From contig JAIQGA010000012.1 in NCBI GenBank assembly GCA_020072925.1, positions 1 to 37,546 on the forward strand: a stretch of 37,546 nt of DNA, in the 5' to 3' direction. Both the position numbers and the translations under genes were made by a program. Positions 3,417 to 35,307 of this stretch are shown here, piece by piece. The notes beneath the pieces were generated by a model, which saw only the letters and a program-made list of their open reading frames with translations, searched no databases and was not told where the DNA came from. Source of the DNA: Terriglobia bacterium. Lineage in GTDB: Bacteria > Acidobacteriota > Terriglobia > UBA7540. The first letter of the stretch is position 1; each line of letters opens with the position of its first letter.

Positions 3417-3507
3417 GGAAATTGGAAATTGGAATCTCGAAATCGAAAATGGAAACTGGAAAATCAAAAACGGAAACTCGAAATTCGAAACTCGAAAATC
3501 GAGACTC
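3417..3507. repeat. degenerate 7-bp tandem repeat, 13 units (GAAANTC type)
   Basis: Thirteen consecutive heptamers without indels: two GGAAATT, then GGAATCT, CGAAATC, GAAAATG, GAAACTG, GAAAATC, AAAAACG, GAAACTC, GAAATTC, GAAACTC, GAAAATC, GAGACTC. The consensus is close to GAAANTC. It lies between the divergent 130-residue gene and the Gfo/Idh gene. Much more A-rich than its surroundings. See also 28637-28671, 33003-33030, 33493-33520 and 35190-35307, which have the same 7-bp period but other words. Confidence 0.85.
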
Positions 3508-3573
3508 GCCACGACGCGAGGGCGGGTGTATAGTTCGGCCCTTCGTTGCGGCGAGCTGGAAAGCGCGAGTCGA

Positions 3574-3641
3574 AAGTCGAAGGTCAAAGGTCGAGGGGTC
3601 CGCTTTCTCGCTTTCGACATTCGACCTTTGACTTTCGACTT
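3574..3641. repeat. heptamer-derived inverted repeat just before the oxidoreductase RBS
   Basis: The arm at 3574-3594 and the arm at 3621-3641 are reverse complements at 20 of 21 positions, separated by 26 bases. The left arm is built of 7-bp units (AGTCGAA, GGTCAAA, GGTCGAG), so it is a heptamer array followed by its own inversion. The right arm ends five bases before the Shine-Dalgarno AAGGAGGAGG of the next gene. The RNA would fold into a long hairpin at the end of the leader. Confidence 0.8.
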
Positions 3642-28636: not shown

Positions 28637-28671
28637 TTGACTGCCAACTGTTGACTGTCGACTGTCAACTT
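28637..28671. repeat. 7-bp tandem repeat, 5 units (TTGACTG type)
   Basis: TTGACTG, CCAACTG, TTGACTG, TCGACTG, TCAACTT in a row without indels. It lies in the gap between gpmA and the lytic transglycosylase leader, about 90 bases upstream of that promoter and 27 bases after the gpmA stop codon. Same period as the arrays at 3417 and 35190. Confidence 0.75.
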
Positions 28672-30071: not shown

Positions 30072-32969
30072 TTACAGCATCTTCTCGATAATGGTTGGAA
30101 TGGCCTGGAGGGATTCTCCGAGCTTGGCGGGGTTCTTCCCACCGGCTTCCGCCAAGTCCTTTCGCCCGCCGCCCGAGCCTTCGACAAACGCCGCGGCCTG
30201 CTTCACGATTTTTCCGGCGTCGAGCTTGTTCGTCAGGTCTTGGGTGACGGCGGCGATGAGCGAGACTTTTCCATCCGCGACGCTGCCCAGAACAATCACG
30301 CCGGACTGGAGTTTGGCGCGCAAATCGTCCACCATCTGCCGCATTGCGGAGCGGTCGGTGACCTCGACCTGCGCGGCGATGACGCGCACGCCCTTCACGT
30401 CGCGCGCCTGCTCGACCAGTCGGCCCGCCTGCGAGGCGGCGCGCTTCATCTGCTGCGCCTCAAGTTCCTTGCGCAGCTTCTTCTCGGCTTCCGTGAGCTT
30501 CTCGGCCGCCTGAAGCAGTTCGTCCGGCTTGGCGCGCAGCGTGTTCGACAGTAGCGCCAGCGTCTCGCTGGCTTGCCGCAGTTGATGCAGCACGCCCGTG
30601 CCGGTCAGCGCCTCGATGCGGCGCGTTCCCGCCGCCACACTCGATTCGGAGGCAATCTTGAACAGGCCAATGTCGCCCGTGCGCCGCACGTGGGTGCCGC
30701 CGCAGAGCTCCTTGGAGAAACTGCCGTCCGCAATCGAGACCACGCGCACCTTGTCGCCGTACTTTTCGCCGAACAGCGCCATGGCCCCGGAATTGACGGC
30801 GCTGTCCAGGTCCATGACGTTCGTGACAACTTCTTCGTTCTTGAGCACGTGCTCGTTGACCAGGTCTTCGATGTCGAGCAGGTCCTGCTCGTCAAGCCCG
30901 GCGAAGTGGGAGAAATCGAAGCGCAACCGGTCCGGCGCCACCAGCGAGCCTGCTTGCTTCACGTGCGTGCCGAGCGTCGTTCGCAAGGCAGCATGGAGCA
31001 GGTGCGTGGCTGTATGATTTCGGCGAATGGCGTCGCGGCGTTCGGTGTCCGCCTTGGCCGTCACTAGGTCGCCGACGCGCAGCGTGTCGCGCGCAATGGC
31101 CTTGTGGACGATGAGCCCGCTCACCGGACGATAGGTGTCCGTCACGTGCGCCAGTTCGTGGTCGCTGCCGGGCGTGAAGAAAAACCCCGTGTCGCCCACC
31201 TGCCCGCCCGCTTCGGCGTAGAACGGCGTGTGATCCAGAATCACTTCGATTGCGTTTCCTGGCTTAGCTTCGCGAATGGTCTCACCCTTCCGCACTAGCC
31301 CCAGGATGCGGCAATCGCTCGAAGTCGTCTTGGTATAGCCCTCGAAGGCTGTTTCCCCCTCTTCGGCAAGGTGAAGGAAAATGGGCGGAGCGACTTTCCT
31401 TTCAGCGCCCTTCCAACTTGCCCGCGCGCGTTCGCGCTGCCGTTCCATCTCGGCGTTGTAACCATCCATGTCGACGTCGAGTCCGTAACTCACGACAACG
31501 TCACGGACAAACTCGGGCCGAAGCCCGAAGGTGTCGTGGAGTCGGAAGAGATCAGCACCATTAATCCGGGGAAGTCCCTCAAATCCAGGCCCAGGGCTGA
31601 GCCACGCGTCCTTGAGAGCGGCCACTAACTGCGCGTCCAGCGGATTTCTGCTTTCTTTGCCCAATTGGCCCACCTTATACTGCGCCATGCCCGTGCCAAG
31701 AGCGTGAGCGGAGGGGGAGAGATTGGGACCCAGAGTCTCCAAGGGTTCGCGCGTGTTCAAGACCTTTTTCAGCTCGGAGCTCGCGCCAGGATAAGATTCC
31801 TTGACGGCCCTGAAGGGCGCATGAAGACCCGAAGGGAAATACACTATCGCCGAATTCATCTCCTCCAAGCCCCGTCGCGTTGTTTGCGCATACCTCTCCT
31901 CCTCGATCTTGATCGCCTTGGCGACGTGCTGTTCAGTCTCAAGGAGTTCAGGGTAAGCGTCCTTTATCATCTGGACGACGTGAGCCGCCATCTTGAAGAG
32001 GAACGGCTCATTCAAGCCGAGGGTCTGGCCGTGGTAGAGGGCCCGGCGCATGATGAGGCGGAGCACGTACCCGCGGCCTTCGTTCGAGGGCAGCACGCCA
32101 TCGGAAATCAGGAACGTGGACGCGCGCGCGTGGTCGGCGATGATGCGCAGCGAGACATCGGTATCGTGATTCGCGCCGTACTCGACGTTGGCGAGGTTTG
32201 ACGCTTCCTCGATGAGGGGTTGGAAGAGGTCTGTATCGAAATTCGAGACCTTCCCCTGGAGGACGGCAGTCAATCTCTCGAGTCCCGCGCCGGTATCGAT
32301 GGAGGGGCGGGGCAGGGGAGTCATATTCCCTTGCTCGTCGCGATTGAATTGCATGAAGACGAGGTTCCAAAGTTCGACGTAGCGCCCGCAATCACAGGGA
32401 AACTTGCAGTCGGTGTGGCCGAGGTCGCTCGCCTCGGAGCCCATATCGTAGTGCAGTTCCGAGCACGGCCCGCAGGGGCCCGTCTCGCCCATGGCCCAGA
32501 AATTGTCCTTCTCATCCATGCGGAAGATGCGCTCGCGCGGCACAATCTTCGCCCAGAGTTCTTCCGCCTCGTCGTCCTCGCGGAACACTGTGGCGTAGAG
32601 CTTCGCGGGCAGGATACCGTAACCCTGCGTGATGAGTTCCCAAGCCCAGGGAATCGCTTCCTTCTTGAAATAGTCACCGAAGGAAAAGTTCCCGAGCATT
32701 TCGAAAAACGTGTGGTGGCGACGCGTGCGGCCGACCTGTTCGAGGTCGTTGTGTTTGCCGCCCGCGCGCACGCATTTCTGCGATGAGCAAGCGCGCGAGT
32801 AGTCTCGCCGCTCTCGCCCCAGGAATACGTCCTTAAACTGGTTCATGCCGGCGTTGGCGAAGAGCAGGGTGGGGTCGTTGGCCGGGACGAGGGAGGAGGA
32901 CGGCACAGCACGGTGGCCGCGCGTCTCAAAGAACTTTAGAAAGCCCGTTCTAATCTCGCTTGATTTCAT
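30072..32969 (-). CDS. alaS: alanyl-tRNA synthetase
   Basis: A 965-residue AlaRS, which charges tRNA-Ala and edits mischarged tRNA. The N-terminal class II core includes FFxxxGH (FFETRGHRAVPSS), GMNQFKDVFLG and RVG-like motif 2. The editing domain has the zinc motif HTATHLLHAAL, followed by CGGTHVRRTGDIG. The C-terminal DHHA1-like part ends in GGGRKDLAEAGGKNP. E. coli AlaRS has 876 residues. Most of the excess lies in one insertion of about 97 residues (372-468, bases 31566-31856) between RRGLEEM and INGADLFRLHDTFG, where normally a short linker sits. The insertion is in frame and has no stop. The four-helix-bundle gene lies just upstream. Confidence 0.95.
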   Translation of the reverse strand: MKSSEIRTGFLKFFETRGHRAVPSSSLVPANDPTLLFANAGMNQFKDVFLGRERRDYSRACSSQKCVRAGGKHNDLEQVGRTRRHHTFFEMLGNFSFGDYFKKEAIPWAWELITQGYGILPAKLYATVFREDDEAEELWAKIVPRERIFRMDEKDNFWAMGETGPCGPCSELHYDMGSEASDLGHTDCKFPCDCGRYVELWNLVFMQFNRDEQGNMTPLPRPSIDTGAGLERLTAVLQGKVSNFDTDLFQPLIEEASNLANVEYGANHDTDVSLRIIADHARASTFLISDGVLPSNEGRGYVLRLIMRRALYHGQTLGLNEPFLFKMAAHVVQMIKDAYPELLETEQHVAKAIKIEEERYAQTTRRGLEEMNSAIVYFPSGLHAPFRAVKESYPGASSELKKVLNTREPLETLGPNLSPSAHALGTGMAQYKVGQLGKESRNPLDAQLVAALKDAWLSPGPGFEGLPRINGADLFRLHDTFGLRPEFVRDVVVSYGLDVDMDGYNAEMERQRERARASWKGAERKVAPPIFLHLAEEGETAFEGYTKTTSSDCRILGLVRKGETIREAKPGNAIEVILDHTPFYAEAGGQVGDTGFFFTPGSDHELAHVTDTYRPVSGLIVHKAIARDTLRVGDLVTAKADTERRDAIRRNHTATHLLHAALRTTLGTHVKQAGSLVAPDRLRFDFSHFAGLDEQDLLDIEDLVNEHVLKNEEVVTNVMDLDSAVNSGAMALFGEKYGDKVRVVSIADGSFSKELCGGTHVRRTGDIGLFKIASESSVAAGTRRIEALTGTGVLHQLRQASETLALLSNTLRAKPDELLQAAEKLTEAEKKLRKELEAQQMKRAASQAGRLVEQARDVKGVRVIAAQVEVTDRSAMRQMVDDLRAKLQSGVIVLGSVADGKVSLIAAVTQDLTNKLDAGKIVKQAAAFVEGSGGGRKDLAEAGGKNPAKLGESLQAIPTIIEKML

Positions 32970-33002
32970 CGTTTATGCATAGCCGTTCTATTGGAGTTCT
33001 AA

Positions 33003-33030
33003 ATGGTGAATAGTGAATGGTGAATAGTGA
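33003..33030. repeat. left heptamer array of the four-helix-bundle cassette
   Basis: Four units: ATGGTGA, ATAGTGA, ATGGTGA, ATAGTGA, strictly alternating. The inverted counterpart is at 33493-33520. The two flank the four-helix-bundle gene on both sides, 17 bases from its stop codon at this end. Confidence 0.85.
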
Positions 33031-33047
33031 ATTGCCAATCCAACGAC

Positions 33048-33422
33048 TTAAGCGGCGAGCTTACGCTTCGTGTTGACGACAATGCGTGTCAGCACTGAAA
33101 CAATCTCCTCGGTTTCGTGGATCAGTGGCTTCAGTTTGGCATCTGTCACGATGTCGGACTCTGAAAGCAAGCGTAGCCAGTACAGGCTTTCCCTGGCTTC
33201 CTTTTGAGCGATTCCCAGTTTATGGATAAAGTCGGCGCGGCTTTCACTTGCCTGTGCTTCCTCGACGTTTGCACCCACCGAGCACGCCGCGCGCAAGTAC
33301 TGTTTGCCCAAGATCCACCCCGCTCCATCTTTCCCCTTTTGAAGGAACTGGTAGAGCCGTATGGCACGCAGGGCGTATTGAAACGAGCGCTCGCGTATGT
33401 CCACTGGATGCGCGTGTCTCAT
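33048..33422 (-). CDS. four-helix bundle protein (S23/IVS family)
   Basis: A 124-residue protein of the four-helix bundle family (TIGR02436, PF05635), known from intervening sequences in 23S rRNA genes of some bacteria and as Avd-like partners of diversity-generating retroelements. Motifs: RSFQYALRAIRLYQFL (helix 1), AACSVGANVEEAQASES (SIGANxxE motif), then HKLGIAQKEARESLYWLRLL (EA.E..YWL). The ATG at 33422 fits the family start (MRHAHPVDIRERSF), with AGGTG upstream; an earlier in-frame start adds 18 residues. No rRNA, reverse transcriptase or variable-repeat target is present. It lies between recX and alaS, which are neighbours in many bacteria, so it looks inserted. Role unknown. Confidence 0.85.
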   Translation of the reverse strand: MRHAHPVDIRERSFQYALRAIRLYQFLQKGKDGAGWILGKQYLRAACSVGANVEEAQASESRADFIHKLGIAQKEARESLYWLRLLSESDIVTDAKLKPLIHETEEIVSVLTRIVVNTKRKLAA

Positions 33423-33492
33423 GGAATTCACCTGATTGGACCCCGGACCCACTGAGATCCTCCTCCGCAATCTCACTTTTCACAGCTTCAAT

Positions 33493-33520
33493 TCACCATT
33501 CACTATTCACCATTCACTAT
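33493..33520. repeat. right heptamer array, inverted, overlapping the recX end
   Basis: TCACCAT, TCACTAT, TCACCAT, TCACTAT, which is the reverse complement of the units at 33003-33030. Over 23 bases the two arrays are identical when one is inverted. The last unit supplies the TAG stop codon of recX (33517-33519 on the minus strand). Confidence 0.88.
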
Positions 33521-34050
33521 TCCGACCCTTCCTTGACCTCGTCCATGTCCGCGGCGCTCACCTCCTCCGAAACTGGTTGCAGCTCCGGTCGTGATCGCAC
33601 GGCTTTCATAATATCATCGGCGCGGAATCCCTGGCGCAGCAAGCTCTGGCAGAGGGAGGCGAGACGGCTGGAGGTAACGGGCCGGCGCAGGGTGCGGATC
33701 TTCTTCTCCAGGGCGCGTGCCAGGAGGTCGGCCTCGGGGGTTTCCTCGAAGGCCTGATCGAGCGCGGGCTCGATGGCGCGGTAATCAACCAGCTTGGCTT
33801 TCAGCTCGCGCCGGACGCGGTACCGCCCGAAGCCGCGATGGCGCGCCAAGGCGGAAGCGTATTGTTCAGCAAACTTGCGATCGTCGAGGTAACCGAGTTG
33901 GCGAAGGCGGGCGAGAGCCGCGCCGACGCCCGCGTGGCCGGGGAATTTCCGCTCCAGTGCGCGCCGCAATTCCGCCACAGAATAGGCGCGGCGCGCCAGC
34001 ATGCGCAGCGCGGTGGCGTACGGGTCCGGCGCGGGTTTATTTCTTGCCAA
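33517..34050 (-). CDS. recX: regulatory protein RecX
   Basis: A 177-residue RecX, which binds and restrains RecA filaments. It has the three-helix repeat pattern: YATALRMLARRAYSVAELRRALER, VGAALARLRQLGYLDDRKFAEQYASAL, FGRYRVRRELKAKLVDYRAIEPAL. The start is a TTG that overlaps the pilT end by 14 bases, with GGAG upstream inside pilT. recA, its usual neighbour, is not in this position. The stop codon TAG is part of the heptamer repeat, so the C-terminal residues (MDEVKEGSE) may have been altered by the insertion of the cassette. Length is normal for RecX. Confidence 0.9.
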   Translation of the reverse strand: MARNKPAPDPYATALRMLARRAYSVAELRRALERKFPGHAGVGAALARLRQLGYLDDRKFAEQYASALARHRGFGRYRVRRELKAKLVDYRAIEPALDQAFEETPEADLLARALEKKIRTLRRPVTSSRLASLCQSLLRQGFRADDIMKAVRSRPELQPVSEEVSAADMDEVKEGSE

Positions 34051-35101: not shown

Positions 35102-35189
35102 AGTGGGTTCCTCGCCAGGAAACGTCCCAGGTTGGCAAGAAGTTAGCACACGGCGGAGGGAGAGTCAAAGGCAGAAGTCGGGAGAAGGA

Positions 35190-35307
35190 AGTCAAAAGTC
35201 AAAGGTCAAAAGGCAAATGGCAAAGGGGAAGAAAAGAAAGCGTCAAAGATGAAAGCTGACGGCTGAGAGCTAAAGGCGCAACGCTGAAAGCTGTCAGCCG
35301 TCACCTG
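35190..35307. repeat. 7-bp periodic repeat in two sub-arrays (AGTCAAA and AAAGCTG types)
   Basis: First sub-array 35190-35231: AGTCAAA, AGTCAAA, GGTCAAA, AGGCAAA, TGGCAAA, GGGGAAG. Second 35252-35307: AAAGCTG, ACGGCTG, AGAGCTA, AAGGCGC, AACGCTG, AAAGCTG, TCAGCCG, TCACCTG. TGACGGCTGA (35257-35266) and TCAGCCGTCA (35294-35303) are perfect inverted repeats, so the second can fold. Lies between pilT and ilvE and ends four bases before the ilvE stop codon. Confidence 0.78.

Follow-up and report, generated by a model that had tools for sequence, protein, structure and literature searches.

The window, by which we mean the whole 37,546-nt stretch of DNA analysed here, carries between recX and alaS an intergenic element in which a single small gene is enclosed by two inverted arrays of a tandemly repeated heptamer. 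The features of the locus are:

30,072–32,969, minus strand: alaS, the neighbouring gene of the element
33,002–33,522, minus strand: whole element (array, gene, array), 521 bp, with boundaries set by analogy with empty sites in plasmids
33,002–33,032, plus strand: alaS-side array, 3' of the gene, 4.4 units of AATGGTG/AATAGTG (CACTATT/CACCATT on the gene strand)
33,048–33,422, minus strand: S23p gene, a four-helix bundle of 124 amino acids (PF05635, TIGR02436; fold of 2rld and 2gsc)
33,491–33,522, minus strand: recX-side array, 5' of the gene, 4.6 units of AATAGTG/AATGGTG on the gene strand, with the recX stop codon inside
33,517–34,050, minus strand: recX, whose last codon and stop extend into the array

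This anatomy confirms the original prediction of an S23p-type gene between two inverted four-unit heptamer arrays, the right-hand one of which supplies the TAG stop of recX; the identity between the arms also held, though in the best-matching register it spans 25 bases and not the 23 first counted. Three consecutive units of AATRGTG occur four times in the window, always within these two arrays, and never in 100 dinucleotide shuffles of the window. Open reading frames and family profile matches between the arrays yielded the S23p gene only, and no transposase gene. Further period-7 arrays lie elsewhere in the window (3,417–3,508, 3,568–3,641, 28,637–28,670 and 35,189–35,224), that at 3,568–3,641 apparently being an inverted pair without a gene (AGTCGAA/CTTTCGA).

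The gene matched PF05635 (23S_rRNA_IVP; 4e-20) and TIGR02436 (7e-25), and an alternative GTG start upstream, at 33,476, would lengthen its product to 142 amino acids. An AlphaFold2 model comprised four helices (pLDDT 93) and matched 2rld and 2gsc, both of them S23p structures, and less closely Avd, the accessory protein of diversity-generating retroelements (chains 4dwl and 8ub7, TM-score about 0.62–0.73 over the query). Neither the family matches, which were to S23p only, nor the folds, which were those of S23p and Avd, pointed to a Y1 (HUH) transposase; catalytic activity is neither known nor apparent in S23p, and a reading of the protein as its own transposase is not supported. Differences by codon position in the subclade of the window gene (0.30/0.18/0.63) indicate purifying selection on the protein. 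Crystal structures of S23p have reportedly been available without a function since 2006–2007; the structure 2gsc is that of XCC0516, an S23p of Xanthomonas campestris. The related S23p of Xanthomonas is a homopentamer, according to work cited in PMC4990558.

The layout extends well beyond this locus. Our sample of 159 S23p genes comprised 75 from relatives, six further orthologues from the recX site and, across many phyla, 78 from GTDB genomes. Both flanks, measured from the end of the profile match, carried arrays of period 7 or 8 in 68 of the 75 genes from relatives, in all six recX-site orthologues and in 63 of the 78 GTDB genes, a set gathered with a single-protein query and biased to one lineage. 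The stop codon of the ORF often lay inside the 3' array. The inverted-array layout, with a period of 7 or 8, is the rule of the S23p family (137/159), and the refuting case named in the original prediction, homologues elsewhere without heptamer flanks, did not materialise. When the two flanks of the 159 genes were matched, 137 agreed in inverted orientation, compared with 21 in direct and three in reversed orientation, and other lags gave both-flank array counts of 0–2 in the same set. Random positions in this genome returned 2–8 per 4,000 (0.05–0.2%); of 30 ParE toxin genes from the genomes sampled, 0 had arrays on both flanks. Chance or composition as a source of the arrays is ruled out by these random positions, by the other lags, by mispaired arms, by S23p-free genomes and by ParE. 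Within this genome, those S23p paralogues that were examined and uncut each had inverted arrays with a word of their own. Complete plasmids from cyanobacteria and one Azospirillum carried inverted arrays at 14 of 16 S23p copies, and metagenome assembly is therefore not their cause. Two copies, L002 (G000:C228) and L336, have an in-frame stop (TAG, TAA) with at least one array still flanking, and are probably decaying. Three elements (L294, L432 and L437) sit within CRISPR-Cas operons of cyanobacterial plasmids, twice at cas6/cas4 and once at cas10/cmr3.

Each array word tracks the lineage of the enclosed protein. Repeat-unit similarity between the two arms was 0.78 within a locus, 0.51 between loci and 0.50 between paralogues in one genome. 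Over 124 loci, word similarity rose with protein identity (Mantel rho 0.685, against a maximum of 0.21 in 500 shuffles), and among relatives alone, with words shuffled only among the copies of one genome, none of 1,000 trials reached the observed value. The lineage of locus L045 has mostly kept the word TCAGCNN across Acidobacteriota, Chloroflexota, Cyanobacteriota, Nitrospirota and Planctomycetota, and words in the lineage of the window gene (GAATRGT, GAATTMT, GAAGTRT, AAAGGGT and AAATGGT) conform roughly to RAAKNNT. This co-variation suggests that S23p recognises its own repeats, so that the earlier idea of a protein that binds such repeats survives as a reading. Mismatches between arms showed no G.U bias for RNA of the coding strand (192 vs 175, p 0.40), and in TCAGCNN the match between arms at the two free positions was only weak, which implies that the constraint acts on the word and not on a full stem; together, these two observations speak against selection on the arms as an RNA stem.

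Arrays also occur without a gene. In this genome (G000), AATRGTG arrays were found at about 17 other places, several of them inverted pairs with loops of 35–95 bp, and the density of lag-7 arrays was 175 per Mb, compared with 132 per Mb in S23p-rich relatives and 19 per Mb in S23p-free genomes of the class. Compared with S23p words from other genomes, its own were closer to its gene-less arrays (median 0.64 vs 0.51–0.58). In the genus of G052 and G059, many gene-less loops are related copies of one another, and all 15 comparable gene-less sites of G059 also carried arrays in its sister species G052; at some of these, both arms have a different word, and some are doubly layered. Examples of orthologous gene-less sites with different words in both arms are L307:6946 vs L316:11410 and L308:16811 vs L321:13774; at L308:6396, two layers of different words are nested. 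Since all of these sites are occupied but some of their words differ, the sites appear to endure through joint replacement of the word in both arms, a pattern that does not look like frequent fresh insertion.

Mobility is seen in complete Nostocales plasmids. The junction between operon genes B and C in Nostoc was filled in three plasmids and empty in five, the five empty junctions consisting of 3 bp (GTT or ATT) between the two genes. In C052_D and ATCC 53789_a the insert is a 420-bp array–S23p–array unit, and in pNPM1 it measures 602 bp, with a gene-less array element of 182 bp nested inside the S23p ORF. These elements are 98–99% identical between plasmids and their flanks 90–95%; the greater likeness of the element points to recent spread to the same spot, for which either repeated, site-preferring insertion or recombination near the edges of the element may be responsible. 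A different S23p element, with the word GGGAAAA, lies one gene further along in ATCC 53789_c.

The B–C element recurs in Aulosira and in Trichormus/Scytonema, at sites unrelated to the first; its DNA identity there, 77–82%, ends at the arrays. At the Trichormus/Scytonema site, six plasmids of about 98% identity are without the element, and the two empty junctions that were read are both clean. GTAAT stands on both sides of the filled version there, TTCTA stands on both sides in two of the three filled copies at the Nostoc site, and the Aulosira site has no clear target duplication; an apparent 5-bp duplication is thus found at two of three sites, clear at one and probable at the second. An internally deleted derivative kept both array ends. 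That this class of element is mobile is shown by complete, nearly identical plasmids in which a given site is filled in some and empty in others, and the insertions in these plasmids are precise. The term 'uncharacterised mobile cassette' used in the original prediction thus survives for the class, but not as a recent insertion unique to recX-alaS.

The copy in the window has a long history at its site. Among 27 related genomes, the recX-alaS junction held an orthologous S23p element in seven (this one included), with its own words in both arms; these orthologues are 60–74% identical and represent at least seven genera. The remaining junctions held short inverted arrays only, other inserts or nothing. 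In G029, recX and alaS overlap (ATGA), and the end of recX corresponds to the first heptamer of the array in its congener G023, a remnant that we read as the footprint of a loss. Every apparently empty relative could be a loss: relatives without the gene were found, but no virgin empty site at recX-alaS. At least five sites in the family are occupied by the subclade of the window gene, most sites having a single subclade. Recent insertion at recX-alaS is ruled out by the orthologues in several genera and by the heptamer remnant of G029: on this evidence the copy is old and vertically inherited, with a protein still under purifying selection, and the picture of a recent insert found at this spot alone does not fit, given orthologues in at least seven genera and gene-less or deleted versions in others.

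A second protein is associated with similar flanks. GxxExxY (TIGR04256/PF13366, PDDEXK_3) is a small protein unrelated to S23p whose genes, at loci L093 and L095 (recX-alaS of G009 and G002) and L371–L400, are flanked by inverted arrays of period 8–10, of CACAGAGG-, CACCAAGG- and ACAGGATN-type. An inverted flank match was obtained for 19 of 27, none of them at lag 7, against 0 of 30 for ParE, and GxxExxY apparently represents a second class of array-bounded elements. One such element occupies the same recX-alaS site as the S23p element. At recX-alaS of G015 (L087), inverted copies of a CACGGAG/CACAGAG-type repeat enclose no gene, and are probably a gene-less relative of the GxxExxY elements.

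Our preferred reading, to which we assign a probability of roughly 0.7, is that the element in the window belongs to a widespread class of mobile DNA elements of small size (about 0.4–0.6 kb), each consisting of a single S23p gene, whose product is homologous to pentameric four-helix bundles, between inverted arrays of a 7-nt, or at times 8-nt, word that serve as its ends, with S23p probably recognising its own word and a borrowed enzyme presumably cutting and joining. For the class as a whole, comparison between genomes and plasmids establishes the general layout, the lineage-specific word, units with and without a gene that one copy of an otherwise identical site has and another lacks, ends that coincide with the arrays, and non-autonomous derivatives. 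Mechanistically, a ring of S23p would recognise its own word, perhaps with one repeat per subunit, which a homopentamer like that of Xanthomonas and arms of usually about 4–5 repeats would make possible, and would draw the two ends, or their hairpin, together; a host or co-resident enzyme would be borrowed for cutting and joining, and gene-less pairs would be moved in trans, in the way proposed for REPINs and RAYTs. On a wider reading, for which we consider the odds even, S23p elements would form a distinct mobile class in which a nuclease-free pentameric four-helix bundle reads tandem heptamer ends by a word specific to its lineage and directs their transfer, many of the intergenic heptamer repeats of bacteria that have long lacked an explanation would be accounted for, the intervening sequences (IVS) of 23S rRNA would be its rRNA members, and GxxExxY would drive a parallel class with words of 8–10 nt.

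Other explanations share part of this evidence. The mobility could operate at the level of RNA, with an array-folded transcript packaged by S23p, as Avd does in diversity-generating retroelements, and copied into DNA by a resident reverse transcriptase; most predictions are common to this and the preferred reading, which differ in the intermediate. Both the Avd fold of S23p and the cleavage of the Coxiella IVS RNA at its array stem (PMC4990558) are consistent with it, but arms without a wobble-pair signature, an element that itself has no reverse transcriptase and an apparent 5-bp target duplication that is equally typical of DNA transposition make it unlikely. Distinctly improbable is a scenario in which the arrays are independent hairpin repeats, arising through slippage and palindrome-templated errors, into which S23p genes have come as passengers: gene-less pairs are indeed more numerous than genes, sister species keep their array sites even where both arms have changed word jointly, and the absence of a G.U bias would suit it, yet across phyla the word goes with the lineage of the protein instead of the genome, gene and arrays arrive together at array-free empty plasmid sites, and genomes without S23p have few arrays. 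Least credible of the three is a host function, with S23p as a regulator and the arrays as operators, terminators or processing hairpins, because, for all the purifying selection, the long vertical inheritance at recX-alaS and elsewhere and the tie between word and protein, the elements are multicopy, patchy, plasmid-borne and placed between operon genes with clean empty alternatives, and in pNPM1 a gene-less copy interrupts the S23p ORF itself.

Heptameric repeats in bacteria have been noticed for decades and, to our knowledge, no associated protein has been named. The tie of each S23p lineage to its own word gives the repeats and the protein alike a testable function, namely that of a pair by which dispersed hairpins are moved or maintained. 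Were S23p the recognition part, this would be a movement system whose sole encoded protein has no known catalytic domain, with a natural code of specificity that could be read off in thousands of genomes. The open-access literature searched contained no link between S23p and heptamer arrays, the Coxiella case apart. The repeats of Xanthomonas and Nostoc (PMC4692102) and the TAACTGA repeats of Beggiatoaceae (PMC4679880) resemble S23p arrays as tandem heptamers, and in Xanthomonas four units are most common and 70–75 pairs are convergent (inverted), with no cause given (PMC4692102); unlike the elements described here, they were reported without an associated S23p and without a named mobile element. 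Miniature inverted-repeat elements (MITEs) and small insertion sequences share inverted ends and deletion derivatives and, as far as the apparent duplication at two of three plasmid sites goes, a 5-bp target duplication, whereas S23p elements have no transposase and end in tandem arrays whose word varies by lineage. Avd shares the pentameric four-helix-bundle fold (4dwl, 8ub7), but the 521-bp element has neither a reverse transcriptase nor template and variable repeats, and we know of no tandem heptamer arrays for Avd.

Closest in behaviour are RAYTs and REPINs (PMC3116915), in which a gene is likewise flanked by its own class of repeat, non-autonomous inverted pairs are dispersed, several gene/repeat pairs occur per genome and the gene stays vertically for long periods. 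S23p elements likewise have a repeat specific to their protein, and this repeat also occurs scattered as non-autonomous inverted pairs. However, a RAYT is a Y1 (HUH) transposase and REPs are palindromic, whereas S23p lacks the fold of a transposase and is accompanied by heptamers in tandem. In anatomy, the nearest counterpart is the 23S rRNA IVS of Coxiella burnetii, a single S23p ORF between inverted repeats, with three GACAGAT heptamers and one GACAGAA directly before the ORF and a terminal stem of 28 bp (PMC4990558), which by our arithmetic is 4 × 7. The window element has the same S23p ORF and the same terminal inverted repeats around it, and differs in being intergenic, flanked by recX and alaS, where the IVS sits in 23S rRNA helices and is cut from the RNA by RNase III, and in belonging to a class with its own word per copy and dispersed gene-less copies. 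The original prediction was correct in placing the element outside rRNA; the family is nonetheless no stranger to the IVS, the Coxiella one being built alike. Intervening sequences of 23S rRNA look like a special case of the element class, lying inside rRNA, which would also explain their origin.
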